A DNA stretch of 64,000 bases from Roseibium sp. Sym1 (GTDB taxonomy: Bacteria; Pseudomonadota; Alphaproteobacteria; Rhizobiales; Stappiaceae): the NCBI RefSeq assembly GCF_027359675.1, contig NZ_CP114786.1, positions 5,740,501-5,804,500 on the forward strand, given 5' to 3'. Shown one piece after another: positions 45,058 to 51,245 of this stretch. The stretch's first letter is position 1. Every line of letters begins with the position of its first letter. The position numbers and the translations under genes are program-made. Below the pieces are notes generated by a model. The model was given only the letters and a program-made list of their open reading frames with translations, ran no database searches and was not told where the DNA came from.

Positions 45058-46728
45058 ATGGCCAGCGATATCGAAATTGCCCGTGCAGCCAGCATGAAAC
45101 CGATTCAGGAAATCGGTGCGCGGCTCAACATTCCCGACGAAGCCCTCCTGCCCTATGGCCGCACCAAGGCCAAGATCTCCGGGGACTATATCGAAGGTCT
45201 CAACGGCCGTGACAGCGGCAAGCTGATCCTGGTGACCGCCATCAACCCGACCCCGGCCGGCGAAGGCAAGACCACCACCACCGTCGGCCTCGGCGACGGG
45301 CTCAACCGGATCGGCAAGAACGCAATGATCTGCCTGCGCGAACCGTCGCTCGGTCCGTGCTTCGGCATGAAGGGCGGCGCTGCCGGCGGCGGCTATGCCC
45401 AGGTCGTGCCGATGGAAGACATCAACCTGCATTTCACCGGTGATTTCCACGCCATCACCTCCGCGCACAACCTGCTCTCCGCGTTGATCGAAAACCACAT
45501 CTACTGGGGCAACGAACTCGGCATCGACCAGCGCCGTGTCGTCTGGCGCCGCGTGCTCGACATGAACGACCGCGCCCTGCGCGAAATCGTCTGCTCGCTC
45601 GGCGGCGTCGCCAACGGCTTCCCGCGTGAAGGCGGATTCGACATCACGGTCGCCTCCGAGATCATGGCGATCCTGTGCCTGGCGACCGACCTCGACGACC
45701 TGCAGAAGCGTCTCGGCGACATCATCGTCGCCTACCGCCGCGACCGCACCGCGATCACGGCGCGCGAACTGGAAGCCGACGGCGCGATGACCGTGCTGCT
45801 GAAGGAAGCCATGCAGCCGAACCTGGTGCAAACGCTTGAAAACAACCCGGCCTTCATCCATGGCGGTCCGTTCGCCAACATCGCCCATGGCTGCAACTCG
45901 GTCGTCGCCACCCAGACGGCCCTGAAGCTGGCCGACTACGTGGTCACCGAAGCCGGCTTCGGCGCGGATCTCGGTGCCGAGAAATTCTTCGACATCAAGT
46001 GCCGCAAGGCGGGCCTCAGCCCGGATGCCGTGGTCATCGTCGCCACCATCAAGGCGCTGAAGATGAACGGCGGCATCGCCAAGGAAGATCTCGGCACGGA
46101 AAATGTCGACGCCGTGAAGAAGGGATGCGCCAATCTCGGCCGCCATATCGAGAACGTCAAGCAGTTCGGTGTTCCGGCCGTGGTCGCCATCAACCACTTC
46201 ACCGCGGACACCGAAGCGGAAATCCAGGCGGTCAAGGACTACTGCGCCGAATACGGCGTCGACGCGATCCTAGCCACCCACTGGGCCAACGGCTCGGCAG
46301 GCACGGAAGAACTCGCAACCCGGATTGCCGAACTGGCCGAGAGCGGCGCCGCCCAGTTCGCACCGCTCTATGACGACAGCCTGTCGCTGTTCGAGAAGAT
46401 CGAGACCATCGCCAAGCGCATCTACCGCGCCGACGAGGTGCTCGCCGACAAGTCGGTCCGCGACCAGCTCAAGCGCTGGGAAGAGGACGGTTTCGGCAAC
46501 CTGCCGGTCTGCATGGCCAAGACCCAGTATTCCTTCACCACCGATCCGCAGCGCCGCGGCGCGCCGACCGGCCACAGCCTGCCCGTGCGCGAAGTGCGCC
46601 TGTCGGCCGGCGCCGGCTTCATCGTCGTCATCTGCGGGGAAATCATGACCATGCCCGGCCTGCCCCGGGTGCCGTCGGCCAACCACATCAGGCTGGACGA
46701 CAAGGGTCAAATCGAAGGGCTGTTCTGA
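45058..46728 (+). CDS. fhs: Formate--tetrahydrofolate ligase
   Basis: A 556-residue enzyme that interconverts formate, ATP and THF with 10-formyl-THF. The P-loop is NPTPAGEGKTTTT at residues 63-75; EPSLGPCFGMKGGAAGGGYA and the C-terminal MTMPGLPRVPSANHI are family hallmarks. Length is standard. Run in reverse it releases formate and ATP from C1 units, which fits the C1 demethylation genes 4.7 kb downstream. Its own terminator follows. The last ~50 bases of the gene and the terminator are duplicated at 51125-51245. Confidence 0.96.
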   Translation: MASDIEIARAASMKPIQEIGARLNIPDEALLPYGRTKAKISGDYIEGLNGRDSGKLILVTAINPTPAGEGKTTTTVGLGDGLNRIGKNAMICLREPSLGPCFGMKGGAAGGGYAQVVPMEDINLHFTGDFHAITSAHNLLSALIENHIYWGNELGIDQRRVVWRRVLDMNDRALREIVCSLGGVANGFPREGGFDITVASEIMAILCLATDLDDLQKRLGDIIVAYRRDRTAITARELEADGAMTVLLKEAMQPNLVQTLENNPAFIHGGPFANIAHGCNSVVATQTALKLADYVVTEAGFGADLGAEKFFDIKCRKAGLSPDAVVIVATIKALKMNGGIAKEDLGTENVDAVKKGCANLGRHIENVKQFGVPAVVAINHFTADTEAEIQAVKDYCAEYGVDAILATHWANGSAGTEELATRIAELAESGAAQFAPLYDDSLSLFEKIETIAKRIYRADEVLADKSVRDQLKRWEEDGFGNLPVCMAKTQYSFTTDPQRRGAPTGHSLPVREVRLSAGAGFIVVICGEIMTMPGLPRVPSANHIRLDDKGQIEGLF

Positions 46729-46799
46729 TCTCGTCCGGACCGGAACAGCTAACTCGGGCGGATCGCAAGATCCGCCCTTTTTCTTTTGCCGTGATCGCG
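46678..46799 (+). repeat. Left copy of direct repeat (fhs 3' end plus terminator)
   Basis: This copy comprises the last codons of fhs (from Ala-Asn-His), its stop and the terminator hairpin. It matches 51125-51245 with six mismatches over the first 93 bases and looser similarity through the T-run to GATCGCG. The copies lie in direct orientation and bracket the 4.3-kb insert with two peptidoglycan-binding-like genes. Confidence 0.85.
46756..46787 (+). terminator. Terminator of fhs
   Basis: GGGCGGATC-GCAA-GATCCGCCC is followed by TTTTTCTTTT, 28 bases after the fhs stop. An almost intact stem in reverse could also serve the convergent gene at 46805. Confidence 0.92.
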
Positions 46800-46804
46800 C
46801 CAGC

Positions 46805-51000: not shown

Positions 51001-51124
51001 CAAAATGCGTCCCCGAAGAGCTTTGAAATCAGCATCCTGTAATTTTTAACAAGCATACCACCGCGCGTAAACGATCTGCCTGAACGTCCCCGAAAACACC
51101 ACGTCCACTCAAGAACGACCGCCC

Positions 51125-51245
51125 GCCAACCACATAAGGCCGGACGACAAGGGTCAAATCGACGGGCTGTGCTGATCTCGTCCGGACCGGAACTGCCAAC
51201 TCGGGCGGATCGCAAGACACTCCCTTTTTGTTTTCGGCGATCGCG
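51125..51245 (+). repeat. Right copy of direct repeat (degraded fhs 3' end plus terminator)
   Basis: The segment reads Ala-Asn-His-Ile-Arg-Pro-Asp-Asp-Lys-Gly-Gln-Ile-Asp-Gly-Leu-Cys-stop, a pseudogene-like copy of the fhs C-terminus. Its hairpin GGGCGGATCGCAAGACACTCCC no longer pairs well before the T-run. It is the partner of 46678-46799. Confidence 0.85.

Follow-up and report, generated by a model that had tools for sequence, protein, structure and literature searches.

The question raised by this locus is how a pair of large paralogous genes came to lie between fhs and the corrinoid-led C1 operon of the marine bacterium Roseibium sp. Sym1, enclosed by two direct copies of the fhs 3' end. 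The window that we analyzed is a 64,000-nucleotide stretch of contig NZ_CP114786.1 (positions 5,740,501 to 5,804,500), and all coordinates below are those of the window (Table 1). The initial annotation, made from the letters alone, read the arrangement as a two-gene insert of about 4.3 kb that had arisen either by integration at a gene 3' end with att-style duplication or by a duplication followed by insertion. We uphold an insertion in which the fhs 3' end became duplicated, given that the site is empty in close relatives, which carry one copy; the att part is not supported, since the duplicated stretch differs among the filled/empty pairs of sites and no integrase was found in the insert. 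The two-gene insert itself also stands, with its bounds, first drawn to include the repeats, now amended to approximately 46801-51118.

Table 1. Coordinates of the features at the fhs/corrinoid locus of the window
Feature	Position	Strand	Description
fhs, formate--tetrahydrofolate ligase	45058..46728	+	PF01268 904 bits; NF010030 above cut-off; both on the ORF from 45034
Left repeat copy	46672..46800	+	last fhs codons, stop codon, terminator and about 12 bases past the terminator
Intact fhs terminator	46756..46787	+	9-bp GC-rich stem, GCAA loop, T-run; from sequence and fold prediction
Inserted DNA	46801..51118		4318 bases; missing in G065 and G034
PGA	46805..48757	-	650 aa; start resembles a signal peptide (by eye); PG_binding_1-like repeats; shares a homologous C-terminal domain with PGB
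PGB	48910..51003	-	697 aa; start resembles a signal peptide (by eye); repeats of the PG_binding_1 type; predicted C-terminal IalB-like fold
Right repeat copy	51119..51245	+	fhs tail and terminator in decay; 11 of the differences assigned to this copy
Spacer before the corrinoid operon	51246..51445	+	original spacer; contiguous with the single fhs tail in empty relatives
Corrinoid protein gene, first of the C1 operon	51446..52150	+	PF02310 and PF02607 on the ORF from 51434; right neighbor of the variable site

The fhs-corrinoid interval is a variable chromosomal site, with a gene content that is often unlike between species. In a sample of 45 Roseibium genomes, fhs was found in 40 (33 of 37, Sym1 included, plus 7 of 8), and the corrinoid gene follows it on the same contig in 39 of these 40, the contig of L054 ending first. 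Adjacency of fhs and the operon is therefore the rule in the genus, and in the window the insert separates the two, as had been noted. The interval measures 178-282 bases in 13 of 39 genomes and 695-4709 bases in the other 26, with no intermediate sizes, and genes encoding PG-binding proteins occupy it in six of the 39 (the window, L036, L041, L042, L043 and L056). The outcome that had been named in advance as speaking against an insertion, namely, that both copies and the insert recur at every orthologous locus, was therefore not what we found. Strong matches to the PG family are confined to this interval, occurring in 6 of the 45 genus genomes and in 0 of 42 other genomes of the family-level taxon. 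We listed the interval ORFs for 24 of the 26 longer sites plus L136, with L132 left out, and some of the short ORFs may not be genes. Pfam analysis of eight further interval ORFs from six loci identified a TetR regulator and an anthrone-oxygenase-like protein in L037, HD-domain proteins in L051 and L136, and Rieske oxygenases in L064 and L136; the ORFs from L034 and L053 matched no Pfam family. Rieske oxygenase genes of the ring-hydroxylating type lie in the L063, L064 and L136 intervals (L063 by likeness to L064) and may have a functional connection with the C1 operon.

The other gaps in the C1 operon are stable relative to the fhs-corrinoid interval. Gaps of more than 500 bases occur in 0 of 39 genomes between the corrinoid and DUF1638 genes, in 0 of 39 between DUF1638 and the next gene, in 1 of 36 between the MTHFR-like and pterin-binding genes, and in 2 of 37 between the pterin-binding gene and the activator. 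The gap upstream of fhs, from the XRE regulator to fhs, is also variable, exceeding 500 bases in 19 of 33 genomes. In L137 (G064), the matches to fhs and to the MTHFR-like and pterin-binding genes are each split in two, suggestive of errors of sequencing in the assembly. The best NCBIfam matches of the corrinoid gene are MtgC-like and fall under the cut-off, and our literature search on Roseibium with corrinoid and glycine betaine returned no paper. Ahead of the operon, a block of GTCGC/GCGAC repeats (51335-51375) is conserved with variation in 32 aligned sequences and looks like a candidate operator of the C1 operon. We also considered a riboswitch at this position and rejected it, as an Rfam scan of 44000-58000 gave no family above the gathering score.

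The inserted DNA begins four bases before the stop codon of PGA, and its two genes are intact ORFs with 37% identity over 586 columns. In agreement with their early description as lower-GC paralogues, the GC content of the insert is 55.6% compared to 60.8% for the whole window, and GC3 is 63% and 69% in the two genes compared to 86% in fhs. Both are probably cell-wall-binding proteins. PF01471 (PG_binding_1) scores 62.1 bits for PGA and 62.4 bits for PGB against a curated cut-off of 23, which they pass as sums over weak repeats, no single stretch passing on its own; PGA has five TG-type motifs. In a structure model of PGB, the C-terminal part (48910-49470) has a predicted IalB-like (invasion associated protein B) fold, its likeness to PDB entry 3dtd coming from a second alignment round restricted to Foldseek's own candidate list, and a Foldseek search of PDB with the modeled protein at an E value of 0.001 gave no match. 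This domain differs from IalB in that identity to 3dtd is only 9% and it is joined to PG-binding repeats. The modeled resemblance lies in the fold and not in a sequence profile: the C-terminal 186 residues of PGA and of PGB matched no Pfam family at E values up to 1, in a search whose HMMER filters may lose weak matches. The pairing of PG-binding repeats with an IalB-like domain did not appear in our literature search. Among approximately 8000 candidates scored, a protein search with PGA at an E value of 1e-3 matched only PGA itself, and one with PGB brought up distant members. Two proteins, P0002 and P0003, match PGB at 90% and 79%. Two further candidate features of the insert were rejected, namely, a third degraded fhs-tail copy between PGA and PGB (local score 14.5, equalled by 37 of 500 shuffles) and a common sequence upstream of both genes (score 7.5, equalled by 10 of the 10 shuffles shown).

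The repeat that flanks the insert is real and slightly longer than the copies first placed at 46678-46799 and 51125-51245. Its ungapped core (46672-46787 against 51119-51234) is identical in 104 of 116 columns (90%) in direct orientation, and with one gap allowed the repeat reaches 46800 and 51245 (128 columns). The earlier count of six mismatches within the first 93 bases from 46678 proved exact (46689, 46694, 46716, 46724, 46747 and 46750). When compared by blastn with its own 7.26-Mb genome, the repeat matched at these two places only, the second copy at 88% (E value of 7e-40). The left copy had been called functional and its hairpin is indeed intact, whereas the right copy is degraded in both respects that had been claimed: its codons are altered, the last one among them, and the terminator stem is absent from its predicted fold, in which an alternative fold forms instead.

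By the core tree and by four-fold distance, the nearest relatives of the window are L131 (G065), whose fhs is 97% identical to that of the window, and L033 (G034). Both have the empty, single-copy site that the initial annotation had proposed to look for, their only fhs tail being followed at once by what lies behind the right copy in the window. The left block of the window (matching fhs) and its right block (matching the spacer) overlap by 114 bases in L131 and by 133 in L033, which is the signature of an insertion that duplicated its target. We scored the polarity of the 12 differences between the copies against both empty relatives in the 116 ungapped columns, and 11 are changes in the right copy, none is in the left copy and one is unassigned; at 46691 the two copies share a derived G that neither relative has. 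The copies have diverged by a JC distance of 0.11 (bootstrap 0.05-0.18), whereas the branch leading to the window, measured at 1206 four-fold sites, has a length of 0.20 (0.17-0.24). On these sequence distances, the duplication is probably younger than the G065 split if the right copy changes at about the four-fold rate, an age that is only probable because the bootstrap intervals overlap slightly. The shared derived state is limited to one base.

We compared the junctions in three filled/empty pairs (the window with L131 and L033, L036 with L134, and L050 with L049), which were picked from the 26 longer sites for having an empty sister and in which the left edge was fixed by local alignment. 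Numbered from the first base of the fhs stop codon, the end of the left block falls at +60 to +67 in the three pairs (+84 for the window against L033), and the comparison of the window's two copies extends to +75. The right block begins, in empty-site coordinates, at -53 (L131) or -47 (L033), at +37 in L036/L134 and at +85 in L050/L049. The L036/L134 pair holds a PG gene with a 24-base overlap in the terminator, and the L050/L049 pair holds a different gene with a gap of 17 bases. Thus, one near-constant junction lies at the edge of homology and the other is ragged, which argues, albeit from a small number of pairs, against a fixed att site and for a one-sided homologous import anchored in fhs. 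In a scan of 25 longer sites (L054 included, L132 and L136 left out), a second occurrence of the resident fhs tail was present only in the window and L036; a further 18-base fhs-tail match lies in an empty site, L060.

From these junctions we infer that a one-sided homologous import anchored in fhs best explains the insert, a reading to which we give about an even chance. DNA with the PG genes would have entered an empty fhs/corrinoid site in the lineage of the window, probably after the G065 split, and the donor would most likely have been a close relative that already carried PG genes beside fhs. One end of the incoming DNA would have recombined by homology within fhs, and the other would have been joined to the recipient's own fhs without long homology, approximately 54 bases before the stop codon. 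The product of such an event would be a complete fhs with its terminator on the left, the two genes, and the redundant old fhs tail and terminator on the right, the latter decaying, we propose, because nothing selects for it. We looked for an imported stretch within fhs, and divergence along the 3' part of the gene shows no jump marking imported sequence; donor and recipient must therefore have been close, or both tails came from one chromosome. As for how the DNA may have entered the cell, the Sym1 genome matches PF03772 and PF02481, the comEC and dprA families. As these are found in 10 and 11 of 14 control genomes too, the matches do not show competence.

A serious rival, to which we assign roughly half the weight of the one-sided import, is that the two PG genes and a stretch of the fhs tail arrived on a circle, which a single homologous crossover joined to the empty site, leaving the tail directly repeated at either end. 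This would yield the observed order directly, and both copies seem to hold a few bases past the terminator, as a circle could explain. The relevant portion of an E. coli study (PMC3240628) describes a duplication PCR product in 56 of 60 clones, ascribed by its authors to a circle with a single crossover, and 109-950 bp in the 14 that were sequenced, a range that includes the 128 columns of the window repeat; there, too, part of the homologous gene stands as a direct repeat on either side of the insert. It is because most of the E. coli inserts with a flanking duplication are ascribed to a circle that this route stays a serious rival. However, no circular donor is known here. The insert also has no match in plasmid records, the 17 records that do match doing so entirely within the first 129 query bases (the fhs end), and the 697-aa PGB protein as query has none in phage records, so that we rejected a plasmid or a phage origin. 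Nor does a circle alone account for the 17-base gap in L050/L049. We regard it as unlikely that the insert predates the G065 split and was lost by G065, and perhaps by G034, through recombination between the repeats, with gene conversion keeping the copies alike. The split of PGB-type proteins between the window and the R. album group would fit an old genus family (the core tree includes only five PGB-type tips), and direct repeats can promote deletion, as reported in the section of PMC2884548 that concerns them. However, the copies differ less than the branch of the window since G065, albeit with the slight overlap of intervals given above, they share a state at base 46691 found in neither empty relative, and one or two precise losses would be required.

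Improbable to a greater degree is a small mobile element that integrated site-specifically at the fhs 3' end by means of a recombinase from elsewhere, its repeats being attL and attR. Some integrations rebuild the 3' end of their target gene, and in the window, likewise, a gene 3' end is duplicated with one copy still functional. However, there is no integrase inside the insert, as had been noted at the outset: a genome search for tyrosine integrases (PF00589), with serine recombinases outside its scope, found ten matches, the nearest approximately 0.9 Mb away. In addition, the overlap differs among the pairs (114-133 bases, 24 bases and a gap of 17), so that the three have no constant core and independent insertions do not share one repeat core, and only the window and L036 among the 25 scanned sites repeat their own fhs tail. 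Direct repeats around an insert could also come from a transposon that duplicates a long target or from an artefact of assembly, and we consider either highly improbable. Both large ORFs encode PG-binding proteins and not transposases, no inverted repeat of at least 16 bases joins the insert ends, and the copies differ at 12 places on a 6.7-Mb contig, unlike an assembly duplication. Payload sizes of gene transfer agents (GTAs) resemble the 4.3-4.4 kb of the insert. We rejected a GTA payload, given that the GTA marker PF13547 is missing in Sym1 and the other five PG carriers, an absence that does not exclude a GTA from another donor. Across the genus, the marker occurs in 17 of 45 genomes and in 0 of the 6 PG carriers.

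The one-sided import that we favor resembles homology-facilitated illegitimate recombination (HFIR) in that one end is anchored by homology and the other is ragged, with foreign genes beside a conserved anchor and a single-copy empty site in close relatives (L131 and L033). It differs in that only the product is seen here and in that the 4 of 60 E. coli clones taken as one-sided illegitimate events had deletions, according to the part of PMC3240628 that treats them, whereas the window has a duplication. Like the variable segments between backbone genes described in part of PMC2884548, the Roseibium interval has short cargo that varies between conserved neighbors, with some direct repeats and some empty loci; unlike here, most of the repeats in that description are below 30 bp (66 to 94%), and strains rather than species were compared. 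The exchange of T6SS effector and immunity genes in Vibrio, as outlined in the pertinent section of PMC5361080, likewise involves a proposed import that is anchored at one conserved side and leaves remnants of older genes behind; PGA and PGB show no sign of a toxin or immunity role. Mechanisms related to a one-sided import are described in PMC3240628 and PMC5361080. A literature search on fhs with islands and repeats brought up a Methylobacterium genome comparison.

In summary, the window locus is a clear case of a known process, the turnover of genes at a variable site between conserved neighbors. We suggest more tentatively, as a possibility that we rate well below an even chance, that the fhs-corrinoid interval is a genus-wide landing site at which a locus-bound envelope family, combining PG-binding repeats with an IalB-like domain, lacks a mobility gene and passes between Roseibium lineages by fhs homology only; fhs would then act as an attachment site that needs no recombinase. 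Empty sister sites, a decaying copy whose changes can be polarized and further filled/empty pairs together offer a test of how cargo may enter a chromosome without an integrase, and they draw attention to an envelope protein family whose strong matches lie at one chromosomal address.
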